A stretch of DNA of 64,000 nucleotides from Arthrobacter sp. AFG7.2. GTDB taxonomy: Bacteria > Actinomycetota > Actinomycetes > Actinomycetales > Micrococcaceae. Below the pieces are notes generated by a model. The model had not been told where the DNA came from. It ran no database searches and saw nothing but the letters and a program-made list of their open reading frames with translations. Numbering within the stretch: the first letter of the stretch is position 1; every line of letters begins with the position of its first letter. Where the stretch lies: NCBI RefSeq assembly GCF_002892835.1, contig NZ_PJMB01000003.1:124001-188000 (forward strand). Reading direction: 5' to 3'. Both the position numbers and the translations under genes were made by a program. Shown one piece after another: positions 57,101 to 64,000 of this stretch.

Positions 57101-57765
57101 CCGATTTCTGAGCCCATGAGCATGGTTCCGGTGGTTTCGACCGTCACCTCGACGAAGATGGGGAGCCGGATGCCGCGGGTGACGATGGCCTGCTTGCAGC
57201 CGTTGACCGCGGCTTTGGTCTGCAGGAGGTCCTGGCTGGTTTCGATGAGGAAGGCGTCCGCTCCCCCGTCGATGAGGCCCTCGGCCTGCAGGGCGAAGGT
57301 CTGTTTGAGGTAGTCGTAGCTGGTGTGGCCGAGGCTGGGGAGCTTGGTGCCCGGGCCCATGGAGCCGAGGACCCAGCGCACGCGTCCGTCTGTTTTTTCT
57401 GCCGCTTCTGCGCGTTCCCGGGCGATCTGGGCACCCTTGCGGGCGAGCTCCTCGATTCGGTCGTCGATGCCGTAATCGGAGAGGTTGGACCAGTTGGCGC
57501 CGAAAGTGTTGGTTTCGACCGCGTCGATGCCCGTGGCGAAGTACGCATCGTGGATGTCTGCGAGGACATCCGGGCGGGTGTCGTTGAGGATCTCGTTGCA
57601 GCCTTCCAGGCCCTGGAAGTCTGTTTCGAGCGACAGATCCCGGCCCTGCAGCATGGTGCCCATCGCGCCATCGGCAATGACGACCCGGTGGTTCACGGCA
57701 TCCAGCAACTCCTGCGAACGGTCAGGACGGGGCACGGACTCAATATCAAGTGCAAAACGAGGCAT
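54112..57765 (-). CDS. metH: Cobalamin-dependent methionine synthase
   Basis: A 1217-aa modular enzyme transferring methyl from methyl-THF to homocysteine. In order: homocysteine domain with zinc motif GGCCGTTPEH; pterin-binding domain (LAIGERTNANGSKAFRQAML); cap and B12 domain with DVHDIGKNLVDIILTNNGYN, whose His is the lower cobalt ligand; C-terminal AdoMet activation domain (ELGFAAEEPKDTAGYF, RGARFSLGYPACPD). Length and order are normal. ATG at 57765; no cobalamin riboswitch recognised upstream. It connects the folate genes at the left to methionine; it needs B12, and the ECF transporter is one possible but unproven supply route. Confidence 0.97.
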   Translation of the reverse strand: MPRFALDIESVPRPDRSQELLDAVNHRVVIADGAMGTMLQGRDLSLETDFQGLEGCNEILNDTRPDVLADIHDAYFATGIDAVETNTFGANWSNLSDYGIDDRIEELARKGAQIARERAEAAEKTDGRVRWVLGSMGPGTKLPSLGHTSYDYLKQTFALQAEGLIDGGADAFLIETSQDLLQTKAAVNGCKQAIVTRGIRLPIFVEVTVETTGTMLMGSEIGAALTALEPLGVDAIGLNCATGPDEMSEHLRHLSKQSSVAIACMPNAGLPVLGPNGAHYPLSPTELATAHEQFVREFGLGLVGGCCGTTPEHMAAVVERLAPFRTAAPVTTETKANNGPARTPTEREAGIASLYHHVPFDQDSAYLAIGERTNANGSKAFRQAMLEERWDDCVDIAREQVRVGAHLLDVCIDYVGRDGVADIKEIVSRFASASTLPLVIDSTEPPVLQAGLELIGGRPVVNSVNYEDGDGPSSRFARIMPLVKEHGTAVIALTINEEGQARTTEGKVAIASRLVDALVGEWGMRVEDIIVDALTFPIATGQEETRRDGIETIEAIRQITAKYPGINTTLGVSNVSFGLNPAARVVLNSVFLHEAAQAGLTSGIIDAAKIVPLASLPEEQRKVALDLVWDRREYDAEGNTTYDPLAVMLDMFAGVDTAALKDQRAAELAALPTGQRLERRIIDGEGKGLEEDLDLARSEGLTPLGIINDHLLEGMKVVGERFGAGEMQLPFVLQSAEVMKNAVALLEPHMEKSDSSGKGTMVIATVRGDVHDIGKNLVDIILTNNGYNVINIGIKQGIAEIMAAAEEHNADVIGMSGLLVKSTVVMKENLAELQSRGLAKKWPIILGGAALTRAYVEQDLAEQFDGVVRYAKDAFEGLALMEPLVKVARGASPDDVGLPPLKKRIHKGGAKFTVTEPEAMPGRSDVVTDNPLPAPPFWGTRIVRGVALHDYAALLDERATFMGQWGLKPGRGDDGASYEELVEREGRPRLRYWLDRILAEGMLDASVAYGYFPVVSEGEQVVVLHHGEDHDGVLGTAGLLAPDGGSGGPIGTDRLRFDFPRQRRDRHLCLADFVKSRESGQIDVLPVQLVTAGSKIEEFTSKMFAANQYRDYYELNGLVMQLTEALAEFWHARIRKELGFAAEEPKDTAGYFKLDYRGARFSLGYPACPDMEDRRKVTELLKPERMGVILNDELMLHPEQSTDAFVFHHPEAKYFKV

Positions 57766-58093
57766 CTAAACAGGTTACGTGTGGGGGCTGAAACGTTGCG
57801 CTGTGTGTCCGTGTACTACGGCGTGGGGTGGTGGTTGGGCTTGCTAGTCGCCGTTCGCAGGCGCTTGGGTCAGCGGTTGGTGACGACGACGGGCGCCAGC
57901 TTGGGAGCTTCAGTTTGGAACGTTGTAGCCGTTGCACAAGCCAGAGAGGTTGTTATGCCCTCTTTTCGACATGGAGTCATAGCTGCAACCAGATGAGTGT
58001 CATTCAGGACAATCGCATGTAGTTTGTTGCTTCATCAGCTTGGATCTTTGCTGCACTTCGTTGTGCAACATCGACGGTCTTGTAGGGGGACAA
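57766..58093. other. Divergent intergenic region at the island boundary
   Basis: About 330 bp between metH and the nuclease gene. G+C falls visibly from about 57950 rightward, which suggests the left edge of acquired DNA. No tRNA, integrase or long direct repeat with the right edge (about 63000-63083) seen. Confidence 0.4.
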
Positions 58094-59185
58094 ATGGAGT
58101 TCGCAGAGAAGCTTTCAGCGTTGGCAGCAAAGGTGCGCCAACAGCGCGGTGTTATCCAGACAGAAGAGGCGACGAAAAACGCGTTCGTGATGCCGTTCAT
58201 TTCGACGATTCTTGGCTACGACGTATTCAATCCCATGGAAGTCGTTCCGGAATTCATCGCAGACGTGGGGCTCAAAAAGGGCGAGAAAATCGACTATGCG
58301 ATCGTCAAGGACGGCGAAGTCCAGATCCTGATCGAGTGTAAGAAGTCCAGCGAACCGGTCAAAATCGAGCACGCGTCGCAGCTTTTCCGGTACTTCGCCG
58401 TAACCAATGCTCGGATTGCGATCCTTACCAACGGGGAGGTCTACCAATTCTTTACGGACCTTGACGCGCCTAACCGCATGGATGCGAAGCCGTTCCTCGT
58501 GCTCGATTTGAATGACATCGACCAAATGCTAATCCCCGAACTTCAGAAGCTGTCCAAGGATGTTTTCGATCTCGACTCGATCATCAGTGCGGCTGGCGAG
58601 CTGAAGTACATCGGCGAGCTGAAGCGGACTCTAGCCGCGCAGTTCAAGGAGCCTGAAGACGAATGGGTCAAGTTCCTCACTGGACGCGTGTATTCCGGCC
58701 CGTACACCCAGAAGGTGCGGGAACAATTCACTGCCCTGGTTACCAAAGCATCAAAGCAGTTCTTGAATGATCAGGTGAACGAGCGCTTGAAAAAGGCCCT
58801 CGGCAACCCGGGCTTCCCCCAGAACGAGGAAGCCGCAGTGGCGGCTAGCGTCACCAGCGCTCCAGTAGCCGAAGCGGACCTGGCCGAAGCTGATGGGCTC
58901 GAGACGACGCTGGAAGAGATCGAGGGTTACCAAATTGTGCGGGCCATTGTTTGCAGCGAGGTGAAGCCAGCGCGAGTAGTTCAACGGGATGCCAAATCTT
59001 ACTTCGCAGTGCTGCTGGACGATAACAACCGCAAGCCCATCGCACGCCTGCACTTCAATCGGACTCAGAAGTACATCGGGATCTTCGACGACAACAAGGA
59101 AGAGACCCGAGTTCCCATTAGCTCTCTCGAGGAAATCTACGAGCATACTGAAGCTCTGCGCGCGAGCGTCAAGAGTTACCTATGA
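58094..59185 (+). CDS. Stand-alone type I restriction R-subunit N-terminal domain nuclease (HsdR_N-like)
   Basis: A 363-aa protein. The N-terminal domain is a PD-(D/E)xK nuclease of the HsdR_N type: TEEATKNAFVMPFISTILGY, then D67 in KIDYAI and E81-C-K83 in LIECKK. The helicase and translocase parts of HsdR are absent and no HsdM or HsdS lies nearby, so it is not a working type I system. The C-terminal 90 residues (GYQIVRAIVCSEVKPARVV, SYFAVLLDDN, IGIFDDNKEE) form a separate alpha/beta module. ATG at 58094 has AGGGGGA 5 bases upstream. Low G+C for the window. Possibly a nuclease effector, target unknown. Confidence 0.85.
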   Translation: MEFAEKLSALAAKVRQQRGVIQTEEATKNAFVMPFISTILGYDVFNPMEVVPEFIADVGLKKGEKIDYAIVKDGEVQILIECKKSSEPVKIEHASQLFRYFAVTNARIAILTNGEVYQFFTDLDAPNRMDAKPFLVLDLNDIDQMLIPELQKLSKDVFDLDSIISAAGELKYIGELKRTLAAQFKEPEDEWVKFLTGRVYSGPYTQKVREQFTALVTKASKQFLNDQVNERLKKALGNPGFPQNEEAAVAASVTSAPVAEADLAEADGLETTLEEIEGYQIVRAIVCSEVKPARVVQRDAKSYFAVLLDDNNRKPIARLHFNRTQKYIGIFDDNKEETRVPISSLEEIYEHTEALRASVKSYL

Positions 59186-59241
59186 CAGCGCCTTCTTCTC
59201 TTTGCGTGATCTTCAGGCATTTAGCTAATTAAGGAACTTTC

Positions 59242-60816
59242 TTGAAAATATCTGCATATCTCTACCGCAAGGAAGTTACTGATTTTGCTCAATTACTGAA
59301 ACCCGTTCCCAACGGGATGCTTGGCCCGGTTGCACTAAAGCCCAAGGTGAAGCTGAGCGTTCCCTTCCAAGCGTGGTCGGTGCCCGGGCGAAAGAAGCCT
59401 CCTTCATGGGCTGCGGTCGCAGGGGAACTCGTTGACACGTCAGCCTTTGTTAACGTGTCGAACAGCCTGGTATTTCTTTTTGAAGTGGATTCTCGATTCT
59501 TTGCTGTGTCCTTTGGACATGGCCACTCAATTCTCAATGCAGAACTATTGGAACCGGAGTTCGGGCTACGTACTTCAGTCAATGCTGTGGATCCAAACAA
59601 GCTTGCGGCTATGCAAGTTCGGACGTTGAATGAAAACAGCAGGCAACAACGGAGTCAAACATCGAACCAAGCCAGCATCGCCGATCTTGACCTTGACGTC
59701 GAGCGCGAAATGATCCGTTTCGTTCGTGGGAAGGTCGGCGACAGCACGTCTGCAGTCAAAAGCCTGGGCGGTTCTCAAGCTGTCGCTCTTACCACCAAAA
59801 GTGACTTGAAGGAGATTCCGAAGGTCCTGTCGTGGTTATTGAAGGCATACGAGTCCGATGCCTATAAAGCGAGCTTTCCGTATCTGGATAACTTTGTTCC
59901 ACTCAAGAAGAGCGACCCGGCCGTCCCTCCCTTGATCAAGCTTCTCCATGAAGCTATCGCGAAGCCAGCAGGTCAGAGGATCGGCGTAGCATCGCCTGAT
60001 GACATATTTGGCGAGGAACCCGACTATTACCGGATATCCGGCGACCGAAAACGACGCGACAATTTAGAGGATCTCACTCTTGCAGACATCCTGGACCAAA
60101 TTGCGAGCTCAACTAAAACCGAACCTCTAGAGGATCTGAAGATAACCCCTTACAATGCTGGCGGTGATCCGATCCGAACCGCGCGAAAGCTTCGCGACTA
60201 CTTTGTTTACGAAGTAGTTCACGAGAAACAGACGTACGTCTTCTGCCTCGGCCAGTGGTTCCGCATAGATAAAGATTATGTAAAAAAAGTGAATGATCAG
60301 GTTCGTAGTTTGCCCGACATCACAAACGACTTGGCCCTGCCTGACTGGGGTAAGGATGAGGACGGCAAGGAACTCACTGAGGGTACCTATAACGAAGATA
60401 CTGCAAAGAAGCACCAGTGGTTATTGCTGGACAAAAAGAACTTCCCGATTGGCGGTCCTCACCAAAAGGTTGAGATTGCTGACCTGATCACCCATAAGGG
60501 TGATTTTCTCTGTGTCAAACGGATGGAATCCTCTGCCACCCTGTCACATCTCTTTAGCCAAGCTGCAGTTTCTGCTGAACTGTACACTGAGGACGCTGCT
60601 GGCTATGCAACCCATGTAAACCAGAAATATGTCGCTCATTTCGGATCCGCATCGCTGCCAGCACGGCCTCGCATGGTTTTGGCGATTGCCACAGACAAAT
60701 CAGGCAACCTTGCCGATGTGCTTTTTTTCTTCAGCAAGGTGAATCTTGTCCAGCGTCGACGCATCGTTGAGCGTGCTGGTTTTACCCTCGCCCTGTCCAA
60801 GATCGAAAAGAAATGA
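59242..60816 (+). CDS. TIGR04141/DUF6119-family protein of unknown function
   Basis: A 524-aa cytoplasmic protein. KISAYLYRKEVTDFAQLLK, the FAVSFGHGHSILNAELLEPE segment, FGLRTSVNAVDPNKLAAMQV, LSWLLKAYESDAYKASFPYL and the late VCLGQWFRID/GDFLCVKRM regions follow the sporadically distributed TIGR04141 family (recalled, now DUF6119). No known catalytic motif is evident; no membrane segment. TTG at 59242 with AAGGAAC upstream, 56 bp after the nuclease gene, same strand, so likely one operon. Sporadic distribution and company of a nuclease suggest a defence or conflict role, which is inference. Confidence 0.75.
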   Translation: MKISAYLYRKEVTDFAQLLKPVPNGMLGPVALKPKVKLSVPFQAWSVPGRKKPPSWAAVAGELVDTSAFVNVSNSLVFLFEVDSRFFAVSFGHGHSILNAELLEPEFGLRTSVNAVDPNKLAAMQVRTLNENSRQQRSQTSNQASIADLDLDVEREMIRFVRGKVGDSTSAVKSLGGSQAVALTTKSDLKEIPKVLSWLLKAYESDAYKASFPYLDNFVPLKKSDPAVPPLIKLLHEAIAKPAGQRIGVASPDDIFGEEPDYYRISGDRKRRDNLEDLTLADILDQIASSTKTEPLEDLKITPYNAGGDPIRTARKLRDYFVYEVVHEKQTYVFCLGQWFRIDKDYVKKVNDQVRSLPDITNDLALPDWGKDEDGKELTEGTYNEDTAKKHQWLLLDKKNFPIGGPHQKVEIADLITHKGDFLCVKRMESSATLSHLFSQAAVSAELYTEDAAGYATHVNQKYVAHFGSASLPARPRMVLAIATDKSGNLADVLFFFSKVNLVQRRRIVERAGFTLALSKIEKK

Positions 60817-61142
60817 CGTGCTTTTGGTTCATCCCATCGAACCGGAGCATCGTTCACTGCTCGTCACTTATACAAGTGCACCCTCCCTATTATCTGCTCA
60901 CCAGCTGGAAGCACCCGCTGGCCCTTCGTCCACAAGAAGCGACCTCTTACCGCCGCTAAGAGGGCAAGAAACGGTAGTCCTATTACGCGCTGACCCGCTT
61001 TCGAGTCTACCGATGACAGGAGGTCATCTAAGTCTCAATTAGAGAGGACCTGCCCGTGGTGGCCATTTATACTCATGTGTTAAGAGCGACTCTCTTCCGG
61101 ATCGCCCCAGCAAACTTCTCGACCGTCTCGGGACCTCTTCAG
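60817..61142. other. Convergent intergenic region inside the island
   Basis: About 326 bp between the ends of the DUF6119-type gene and the XRE/ImmA gene. Scattered short frames only; no hairpin terminator, RNA gene or repeat recognised. Confidence 0.4.
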
Positions 61143-62228
61143 CTACTGAACTAACGTCAGCCTTGGACGTTCGGTGCTGCTGGAACGGCCACCACCGTCC
61201 AGAAGGGTGGGCGTAAGACCGAAGAGATAAGACTGCACTTCGTCAACTGCGAGACCAAGATCCTGAGCTATCTCATAAATTCCGGATCCACTGCCACGAA
61301 GTTGTTGTAGAACCTTAGTTAGCAATTGGGACGATTCGTGAACAGCGAGGCCACCTGGCTCGCCTCGTCTATAGCCCATCCTGGATAGATCCACGCAGGC
61401 GGCGCGATAGCACCATTCCGTCATAAGGCCAAGTTCATTAGCCCGATGAGCCAACGCCATCGCTGCAACTCCCCAGCGCTTTTTTGCTGCCAGGATTCTG
61501 TCCGCGGTGGCGTTTCGAAGGTTCTGTGCAAATACACCCGATGATGGCATTAAGAACGCTGCGGCGAATCTGTTGGCTTCTAGTTCCGCCGACGCGCCTT
61601 GTGGCTCTTTCTCTTCGCCGTGCAGAATAAGGTGTCCGAGTTCGTGCGCAGCATCAAACCGACTTCTTTCTGGGGATTTTCCACAACCCAAGAAAACGAA
61701 TGGCGTACCGTGCCAGTTGAGGCAGAACGCATCTAGGTCCTGATTATTGTGAGCCAAGGTGTAGACCCGAACGCCGTGCGATTCGAGCAGATGCACAAGG
61801 TTTCCCACCGGGCCTATACCGAGGCCCCAACGAACGCGAAGCTCTTCCGCCGCCCCTTCCGGGCTTCGGCTGCTAAGCGTGGGCAGATCAGATTTTGGCA
61901 GTCGAAAGCGGCTTTCGATCCAATCATTGATCAGGATGGCAATGCGTCCCGAAGCTAGGCCACGGTCGCGGGTTCTGGCGGTCATCTTACTGAGCGCTCG
62001 AAAGCTGACCGCTTGAATCGGAATCTCCTCCATCTCCTCGGAGAGCAGAAAGGCGGGCGCCAAGCCGAGTTTCTGTGCCAGCAGGCCGACGATTTGGTCT
62101 GTGGGCTCCTGGTGGCCATTTTCGTAGGTAGACAGACTCTTGGTACTTATACCGGTTTCTTCGGCCAGTTTTGTGAGCGTCCAGCCATGACGCTTCCGGG
62201 CAGCAGTCAGTCTTGACGGGTTGAACAT
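61143..62228 (-). CDS. XRE repressor fused to ImmA/IrrE-type metallopeptidase
   Basis: A 361-aa protein. Residues 6-58: helix-turn-helix (TLTKLAEETGISTKSLSTYE). Residues about 95-260: ImmA/IrrE peptidase with the zinc motif HELGH at 195-199 and third ligand E217 in LEANRFAAAFLMP. A C-terminal helical region follows (LLTKVLQQLRGSGSGIYEIA). Such fusions sense stress or phage signals and cleave a repressor or antitoxin; here repressor and protease share one chain. It follows the 215-aa gene by 23 bp on the same strand and probably represses it through the palindrome at 62951. Confidence 0.92.
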   Translation of the reverse strand: MFNPSRLTAARKRHGWTLTKLAEETGISTKSLSTYENGHQEPTDQIVGLLAQKLGLAPAFLLSEEMEEIPIQAVSFRALSKMTARTRDRGLASGRIAILINDWIESRFRLPKSDLPTLSSRSPEGAAEELRVRWGLGIGPVGNLVHLLESHGVRVYTLAHNNQDLDAFCLNWHGTPFVFLGCGKSPERSRFDAAHELGHLILHGEEKEPQGASAELEANRFAAAFLMPSSGVFAQNLRNATADRILAAKKRWGVAAMALAHRANELGLMTEWCYRAACVDLSRMGYRRGEPGGLAVHESSQLLTKVLQQLRGSGSGIYEIAQDLGLAVDEVQSYLFGLTPTLLDGGGRSSSTERPRLTLVQ

Positions 62229-62251
62229 CAGTGCAGTGCTTTCTAAGAGTG

Positions 62252-62899
62252 TCAGAGCATGGCGACGTCTACTGTGTAGTCGCCGGCCCCGTCGTCCGGG
62301 CTCTCGCCGATAGGCAGGGAAACGGATGAAGCTCGATCTATTGGATCGATAATTATCCGCTCTGCCCAGTGGGTTATACGTCCGCCTTCAATCCGATCAG
62401 GGAGCGACAACTCGACGAAGATCTTGTCTTCGGTCACGTTGTAGAGCAAATACCACACCACCTGCCCATCGTCATCGATAGGTGCTTCGAGTTGGAAGGC
62501 CTGTCCAAGGTCGAATGAGGTTTGAAAAAAGTTCTGTGTTACGGCCTTTTCCGTGGTCTCGCCCTTGCGATACTTTGTCGATGGCGAGCGGTTTGGCGTC
62601 CAGAGACCGGTATCACTATCACCGGAGCTGGCGACGATTGCCCATTCCCGACCTGGATGAACGGTCCGACAATACCCTTGAGTATTGTCAGGAAACCAGC
62701 CACTCGGCATTAGCTCCTCACGGATGTACCGGTTTGTTTTGTTGTACCGCGTGACGCCTTCCGCGTTTGGTGGCTCCAGGTCGCTGATCAGCCGCGCTTC
62801 AGCATCCGCTCGTAGCACAGTCCTTTGCAGGCTCTGGGCCTCCAAGCCCAAAGAGGCAAGACGATTGCTCGCCTCCTGATGAATCGCAACTGCTGTCAC
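62252..62899 (-). CDS. Hypothetical protein paired with the XRE/ImmA gene
   Basis: A 215-aa protein, no signal or membrane helix. VAIHQEASNRLASLGLEAQS, then YIREELMPSGWFPDNTQGYC, VVWYLLYNVTEDKIFVELSL and a C-terminal segment (RIIIDPIDRASSVSLP) give an alpha-plus-beta protein with an acidic end; I recognise no family. GTG at 62899 has AGGAG 6 bases upstream. First gene of a two-gene operon with the XRE/ImmA protein, a layout often seen for toxin-antitoxin or stress modules; which partner acts is unknown. Confidence 0.75.
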   Translation of the reverse strand: MTAVAIHQEASNRLASLGLEAQSLQRTVLRADAEARLISDLEPPNAEGVTRYNKTNRYIREELMPSGWFPDNTQGYCRTVHPGREWAIVASSGDSDTGLWTPNRSPSTKYRKGETTEKAVTQNFFQTSFDLGQAFQLEAPIDDDGQVVWYLLYNVTEDKIFVELSLPDRIEGGRITHWAERIIIDPIDRASSVSLPIGESPDDGAGDYTVDVAML

Positions 62900-62950
62900 T
62901 GGGTCTCCTGACGGTCGTCGTCTAGCGGAAATGCTACTTCACGAAATACT

Positions 62951-62964
62951 ACCTCATGTGAGGT
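62951..62964. promoter_or_regulatory. Operator palindrome upstream of the 62252-62899 operon
   Basis: ACCTCA-TG-TGAGGT, perfect 6-bp arms, 52 bp upstream of the GTG start. TAGTAT just downstream (minus strand) may be the -10, placing the palindrome in the core promoter. Confidence 0.55.
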
Positions 62965-63083
62965 GGAAAAACGGGAAGCGCCCGTGGCATAGCTGATATT
63001 GCGATTTAATCGAGACCCAGTTGGTTTGGGCGGTTGCAGGGCAAGTGCTCACTTTGGGCTCTAACAGCTGTGGCGCGAACTTT

Positions 63084-64000
63084 CTAGACTTCCGCAACAG
63101 GAGCCGCGAACTGCGCCTCATACAACCGCGCATAAGCTCCACCCGCTGCCAGCAGCGAAGCATGCGTCCCCTGCTCCACGATCTGGCCGGCCTCCATCAC
63201 CAGGATGAGGTCGGCGTCGCGGATCGTGGACAGGCGGTGCGCGATCACAAAGGAGGTCCGGTCGGACCGCAGCGCTCTCATCGCCTTCTGCACCAGCACC
63301 TCGGTCCGGGTGTCCACCGAAGACGTCGCCTCGTCCAGAATCAAGACAGACGGCCGCGCCAGGAACGCCCGGGCAATCGTCAGCAGCTGCTTCTCCCCCG
63401 CGGACACGTTCGAGCCCTCATCCTCCAGAAGCGTGTCGTACCCGTCCGGCAGCGACCGCACGAACCGGTCCACATACGTCGCCCGCGCGGCCTCCAGAAT
63501 TTCAGCGTCAGTAGCCCCGGGCCGCCCATACGCAATGTTGTCCCGTATCGACCCGGCAAACAGCCACGTATCCTGCAGGACCATCCCCATCCGCGAGCGC
63601 AGCTCGCGCCGCGGCACCGAGGTGACGTCCACGCCGTCGAGCGTTATCCGCCCCGCATCAATCTCGTAGAACCGCATCATTAGGTTCACCAGCGTCGTCT
63701 TGCCCGCCCCGGTAGGCCCCACAATCGCCACCGTCTGCCCCGGCTCCGCCACCAAAGACAAAGAAGAGATCAAAGGCTGCTCCGGCGAATACGAAAACGA
63801 GACGTCCGAGAACACCAGCCGTCCCCGCCCAAAAACCGGCCCGGCAGAAGGAGCAGGCTCAACAGACTCCTCCTCCTCATCCAGCAAAGAGAACACCCGC
63901 TCAGCGGACGCCACGCCGGACTGCAGCACGTTCGCCATGGACCCCAGCTGCGCCAGCGGCATGGTGAACTGCCGCGAGTACTGGATGAACGCCTGCACGT
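63084..64000 (-). CDS. ABC exporter, permease-ATPase fusion (5' part beyond window)
   Basis: The visible 305 residues are the end of the membrane domain ([20 protein letters not shown]) and a complete ATPase: Walker [11 protein letters not shown]-loop [19 protein letters not shown], signature [19 protein letters not shown], Walker [18 protein letters not shown]-loop [11 protein letters not shown]. This is the MsbA/LmrA-type half-transporter (lipid or drug export). The gene is cut at the right edge. G+C here returns to the high value of the rest of the window. Confidence 0.93.

Follow-up and report, generated by a model that had tools for sequence, protein, structure and literature searches.

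Do four adjacent genes of low G+C content in Arthrobacter sp. AFG7.2 form one undescribed defence system, or are they separate units that share a chromosomal address? We asked this of the genes lying between metH and an ABC-exporter gene at the right end of a 64,000-nucleotide stretch of contig NZ_PJMB01000003.1 (positions 124,001 to 188,000, hereafter the window), in a genome of 4.05 Mb and 23 contigs. Among the named relatives seen, Arthrobacter sp. OV608 comes nearest, with 91% identity across 5.1 kb. We find that the interval 57.83–63.08 kb fills a hypervariable slot of the chromosome, bounded by metH and the exporter gene. We put at about 60% the probability that this content works as three separate anti-phage units, namely a lone HsdR_N nuclease, a lone DUF6119 protein and a pair matching RosmerTA, a reading drawn from the existence and limits of the slot, its exchangeable content, the solitary nuclease, the family matches, the invariant residues of the DUF6119 protein, and the reappearance of DUF6119 elsewhere, inside restriction-modification operons, inside a single DISARM operon and after RmrA genes. 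The genes concerned, all four intact open reading frames (ORFs), and the exporter gene beside them are as follows.

58094–59185, plus strand: solitary HsdR_N nuclease gene, 363 amino acids from ATG
59242–60816, plus strand: DUF6119/TIGR04141 gene, TTG start, 524 amino acids
61143–62228, minus strand: rmrA (XRE helix-turn-helix plus ImmA/M78 protease, HELGH), 361 amino acids
62252–62899, minus strand: rmrT (RosmerTA toxin family, first of the pair), GTG start, 215 amino acids
63084–63998, continuing beyond the window: ABC-exporter gene, with its stop-codon end at 63084–63091 (minus strand)

The slot edges were placed by blastn of window positions 57501–64000 against eight of the 20 slot loci that we fetched, and in all eight the left match stops and the right match begins at the positions below; the third line gives the segment by which the window differs from OV608.

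57820–57833: left slot edge, where homology with other slot loci ends, 55–68 bp outside the metH start codon
63084–63091, minus strand: right slot edge, where homology resumes at the exporter stop-codon end
59193–63083: segment swapped against OV608, which has metH and the nuclease to 59192, the exporter from 63088 and other genes between

Among 101 congeneric genomes, metH was matched in 55 at a strict limit; 37 of these carry a same-strand exporter match within 100 kb of it, and the metH contigs of the other 18 gave no such match. The distance between the two genes ranges from 0.6 kb (genome G762) to 84 kb (G719) and is 5.3 kb in the window. For 18 of the 20 fetched loci we compared chosen ORFs, one or two per locus, with the PADLOC families and obtained a match at E 1e-5 or better in 11, a count that stands without a control on ordinary genes of the same genomes and in which ATPase-type matches can be generic. 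The PADLOC matches, by locus, were:

L267: PDC-S59
L269: TIR effector
L270: PDC-S06
L273: Septu PtuA
L274: subtilase
L275: PD-Lambda-5
L280: Ppl, in a slot that also holds an IS21-type transposase pair
L281: PDC-S73
L282: AbiU and PD-Lambda-1
L283: PifA
L285: Lamassu LmuB

At that limit the chosen ORFs of L268, L271, L272, L276, L278, L279 and L284 matched no PADLOC family, and the slot of L279 carries metabolic genes. Constant flanks around swapped defence cargo are a likeness to the integration hotspots and defence islands of other bacteria, such as E. coli (PMC10121019); here, by contrast, metH and an ABC-exporter gene form the flanks, the genus is of Arthrobacter type, and at several loci there are additional fragments of the exporter 3' end. 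We regard the slot as a defence hotspot, a known kind of locus in a new location, and found no paper on Arthrobacter defence hotspots or islands whose title or opening describes it. Because additional partial copies of the exporter 3' end lie within the slot (L020, L026, L029, L268, L277, L283 and L285), the data suggest that this 3' end is involved in the exchange. Attachment-type repeats were absent from the slot edges, a repeat search of 57700–63400 returning two short two-copy families (16–17 nucleotides) away from them. Since several loci hold ORFs without a family match, the slot is a ready place to seek new defence genes in Arthrobacter-type genomes; an example is the slot of OV608, in which a 448-amino-acid and a 243-amino-acid gene on the minus strand (L015:9671–11781), neither matching Pfam or PADLOC, form a candidate unknown pair.

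Base composition marks the slot content as an acquired low-G+C island, with 53.3% G+C at 57970–63060 against 64.7% at window positions 1–57765. Third-position G+C is 54.1% in the DUF6119 gene, 56.1% in rmrA and 60.6% in rmrT, all under the lowest value (62.7%) in a comparison set of 27 further ORFs of the window, picked mechanically and at least 250 amino acids long (mean 76.8, standard deviation 7.5), whereas the nuclease gene, at 70.1%, falls inside one standard deviation of that mean. The nuclease gene has a G+C content of 52.1–61.1% elsewhere, including where it stands alone (24 values listed, of 30 other Arthrobacter-type loci), and its low G+C is therefore no sign of joint arrival with its neighbours. 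The preliminary description of this DNA had drawn the four-ORF layout at 58094–62899, a low-G+C island, a nuclease with the motif D67, E81-C-K83 and no HsdM or HsdS partner, an HELGH protease, the HsdR_N, DUF6119/TIGR04141 and XRE/ImmA families, sporadic distribution and a link to anti-phage genes; all of this holds.

The nuclease matches PF04313 (HSDR_N; E 2.6e-12, 47.4 bits against a curated cut-off of 25.1) and, over its full length, phrog_4225, annotated 'endonuclease' (E 2.2e-124). It shares with the HsdR N-terminal domain and phrog_4225 intact catalytic residues: E25, D67, E81 and K83 are invariant in all 81 nuclease sequences, and D-x13-E-x-K is preserved. Up to E 1 it has no sequence relatives in the PDB. 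Unlike a type I restriction-modification enzyme it comes without helicase, HsdM or HsdS, which are absent from the four ORFs, and it is not a type I enzyme. Across the whole genome, neither PF02384 (N6_Mtase) nor the PF00145 methyltransferase family gave a match; PF01555 gave five, located on contigs C10 and C15, so DNA methyltransferases are not altogether missing from it. A stand-alone HsdR_N nuclease is a known kind, an already catalogued phage-associated protein family.

On one reading the four genes, or the nuclease and the DUF6119 protein, would be a single undescribed defence system in which the DUF6119 protein steers or licenses the nuclease and the XRE/ImmA pair controls both, and the adjacency of the genes, the shared strand of the first two, the 56 bp that separate them and the low G+C of all four are in keeping with it. 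The company that the genes keep elsewhere makes it very improbable. We took the best 80 of 570 nuclease relatives (63–99% identity) from a scan of GTDB genomes and searched their flanks by tblastn, up to 10 kb per side, with one flank shorter than 5 kb in eight loci: DUF6119, RmrA or RmrT lay beside the nuclease in none of the 80, and none of the reported DUF6119 loci (sets of 60, 12 and 2) showed a match to the nuclease or RmrT. The flanks of the nuclease fall into 12 clusters among 30 Arthrobacter-type loci, which means that it stands alone at many chromosomal places. OV608 (L015) carries it in the same slot, unbroken with metH and at 91% identity up to window position 59192, just past the nuclease stop codon, with different genes before identity resumes at 63088; in L026 the spacer from nuclease to exporter in the same slot measures only 0.58 kb. 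Together these two loci show that the gene after the nuclease is swappable. Genus-wide conservation of each gene at the site, which the preliminary description had named as one refuting outcome, did not occur, the nuclease being present in 38 of 101 congeneric genomes (full length in 34) and DUF6119 in 12 of 206. We rejected a four-gene system, and likewise a nuclease–DUF6119 pair, on co-occurrence; the undescribed system proposed by the preliminary description falls with them, and so does the pairing, by that description's own criterion 'never adjacent elsewhere'.

Relatives of the nuclease also occur in 18 phage records. In Corynebacterium phage Juicebox, gene 33 (L298:3001–4092), a relative of 47% identity, directly follows the immunity repressor, a position that suggests a prophage-carried protective gene. 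Such records, together with one Pseudomonas phage record in which DUF6119 adjoins an integrase and a slot that accepts anything, transposase and metabolic genes included, could be taken to mean that the genes are leftovers of phages or mobile elements with no defence role of their own. We consider this unlikely, given intact ORFs with conserved catalytic residues, defence-family matches in most of the scanned slot loci, and no integrase, tRNA, structural or other phage gene among the ORFs seen within the stretch; on the same absence a prophage was rejected.

The gene pair rmrT and rmrA shows the sequence features of RosmerTA: two adjacent co-directional genes, here on the minus strand and 23 bp apart, with the toxin first, an antitoxin that joins an XRE helix-turn-helix to an ImmA/M78 domain, and full-length family matches for both. 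RmrA matches PADLOC family PDLC03949 (E 2.5e-138), PF06114 (Peptidase_M78; E 1.8e-23) and HTH_3 (E 8e-12), with HELGH starting at residue 195, and RmrT matches PDLC03935 over residues 7–213 (E 1.1e-49), so the 215-amino-acid protein earlier taken to be unknown has a family. RosmerTA has been studied for Gordonia phage Kita (PMC10440598). Judged by its sequence, the XRE/ImmA pair of the window is not new and matches this known kind. RmrT-type genes directly precede XRE or ImmA genes in all three plasmids inspected, RmrT was absent from the phage records, and Foldseek alone related it to histidine kinases at a probability of 0.16 or less. A broken RmrA-like stretch lies in another genome's copy of the slot (L284:3264–4271).

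What would be new at this locus is the DUF6119 protein as a variant nuclease common to several defence types. It matches PF19614 across the whole profile (E 6.9e-123, 411.5 bits against a cut-off of 27) and TIGR04141 (E 6e-126, 420.9 bits against 35); it has no PADLOC match, the family being absent from PADLOC-DB 2.0.0, and we found no paper on TIGR04141/DUF6119 in open PMC. Up to E 1 there were no sequence relatives in the PDB, and the DUF6119 profile gave one chance-level match there (E 1.9). A structure model with a predicted local distance difference test (pLDDT) score of 92.6 points to two domains of interest.

59242–59868, plus strand: residues 1–209, predicted N-terminal domain resembling RdgC
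60286–60813, plus strand: residues 349–524, predicted PD-(D/E)XK-like nuclease domain, with E411 (codon at 60472), D414 and K426 (codon at 60517)

RdgC is a DNA-binding ring protein that is not known to have a nuclease domain. The N-terminus of the DUF6119 protein is predicted to be RdgC-like and would bind or encircle DNA; no sequence similarity to RdgC was found, and, unlike RdgC, the DUF6119 protein adds the predicted nuclease domain. Its C-terminus is predicted to be a metal-dependent nuclease built on E380, E411, D414 and K426. These four residues, with S435, H436 and Q440, are invariant in all 99 DUF6119 sequences. The canonical (D/E)-x-K on the third strand is missing, K426 being invariant and residue 424 being H or C; since E411 and D414 are invariant instead of the canonical acid, this is a variant site at best and the protein is not a canonical PD-(D/E)XK member. 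We take HamA, Shedu, FokI, NucS, CdiA-CT, SfsA, Cdn1, Cfr10I, PspGI, BglII, NaeI and EcoRV to be PD-(D/E)XK-fold proteins, leaving Upx out of that group. The DUF6119 protein differs from the single-protein or short PD-(D/E)XK defence nucleases HamA of Hachiman (8vxy), Shedu SduA (8ps5, 8ti9) and Upx (9wuf) in its modelled RdgC-like N-terminal part and in the spacing E-x2-D-x11-K, where the acid that normally stands before x-K is missing; it has no sequence match to any of them.

The neighbours of DUF6119 vary by lineage, and a partner common to all members was rejected. We examined the 12 annotated records among 16 from plasmids and phages (four being unannotated): DUF6119 lies between hsdS and hsdR in three, all plasmids, and near an hsd gene cluster in two more, one with a truncated DUF6119, while seven have no hsd genes near it. 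It overlaps the end of hsdS in L013. In a DISARM operon (L136:3732–15295) it is flanked by drmMI and drmA and overlaps each of them by 4 bp, the operon matching the PADLOC families DrmMI (E 0), DrmA (2.1e-272), DrmB (6.8e-83) and DrmC (1.3e-76). An HsdM-type methyltransferase lies within 5 kb of DUF6119 at 25 of 34 Streptomyces loci, compared with none in 20 regions taken at fixed offsets in 10 of these genomes. The corresponding counts for the family (1/6) and for other phyla (6/8) are partly circular, five of those seven loci having supplied reference proteins, and only the Streptomyces count uses references from other genera. None of the 12 loci of the window's own genus has such a neighbour, which speaks against a general link to methyltransferases. 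The two closest relatives with context (L293 and L294, 48% identity) stand alone in Streptomyces chromosomes, have a G+C content of 51–52% and show no match to a methyltransferase, a nuclease or Rmr genes around them; the DUF6119 gene of the window is therefore of the solitary sort.

Two congeneric genomes carry an RmrA gene directly ahead of DUF6119, co-directional and with a gap of 21 bp (L263:6163–9078 and L264:6190–9078). The L263 RmrA matches PADLOC at E 7.8e-79, and the two genomes share a 4.5-kb block with both genes at 92% identity, while their outer flanks otherwise differ; a 0.75-kb piece lies on the other side in L264 relative to L263. RmrA stands beside DUF6119 at three of 76 loci at most, counted with a profile whose source sequences were those three loci themselves and the window, and the arrangement is hence rare.

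Two accounts of DUF6119 compete on this evidence. The protein could be a DNA-binding accessory, an RdgC-like clamp whose non-catalytic PD-(D/E)XK-like C-terminus recognises DNA ends or aids restriction complexes, as the modelled N-terminus, the H or C in place of the (D/E)xK glutamate and its presence in operons that already have a nuclease (HsdR) would allow. We hold this to be doubtful, though to be taken seriously: seven residues invariant in all 99 sequences are what is expected of an active site under selection, and solitary members exist without a partner to assist. Tentatively, and at somewhat less than even odds, we propose that the DUF6119 proteins are anti-phage nucleases of a family not yet described, in which an RdgC-like clamp is joined to a PD-(D/E)XK nuclease with a rebuilt active site (E380, E-x2-D-x11-K and Q440). 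Such a protein may work alone, as in the window, and also as a plug-in effector of type I restriction-modification, of DISARM and of an RmrA antitoxin, the last in two congeneric genomes, where it would stand in for the toxin. If so, a family annotated only as 'sporadically distributed' would gain a testable mechanism, in which a clamp acts with a variant nuclease site, and three defence types, restriction-modification, DISARM and toxin-antitoxin, would share an effector.

Taking the slot content as three separate units, we envisage that they entered a slot that exchanges defence genes at different times. The solitary HsdR_N nuclease, with no partner methyltransferase, would cut invading DNA that either lacks or carries some feature, and the DUF6119 protein would cut invading DNA alone, serving as an extra nuclease when inside type I restriction-modification or DISARM operons. 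RmrA would repress and neutralise RmrT; phage attack would remove RmrA, and RmrT, once freed, would stop growth. By its motif the nuclease is of restriction-enzyme type; the DUF6119 protein is predicted to be so too, and RmrT more weakly.

Beyond plasmids and chromosomes, DUF6119 was confirmed in none of the viral contigs and occurs in one phage record. In a further locus (L137:4681–9778), DUF6119 stands behind a DruM-type cytosine methyltransferase and a gene that, from our reading of its sequence, we call Vsr-like.

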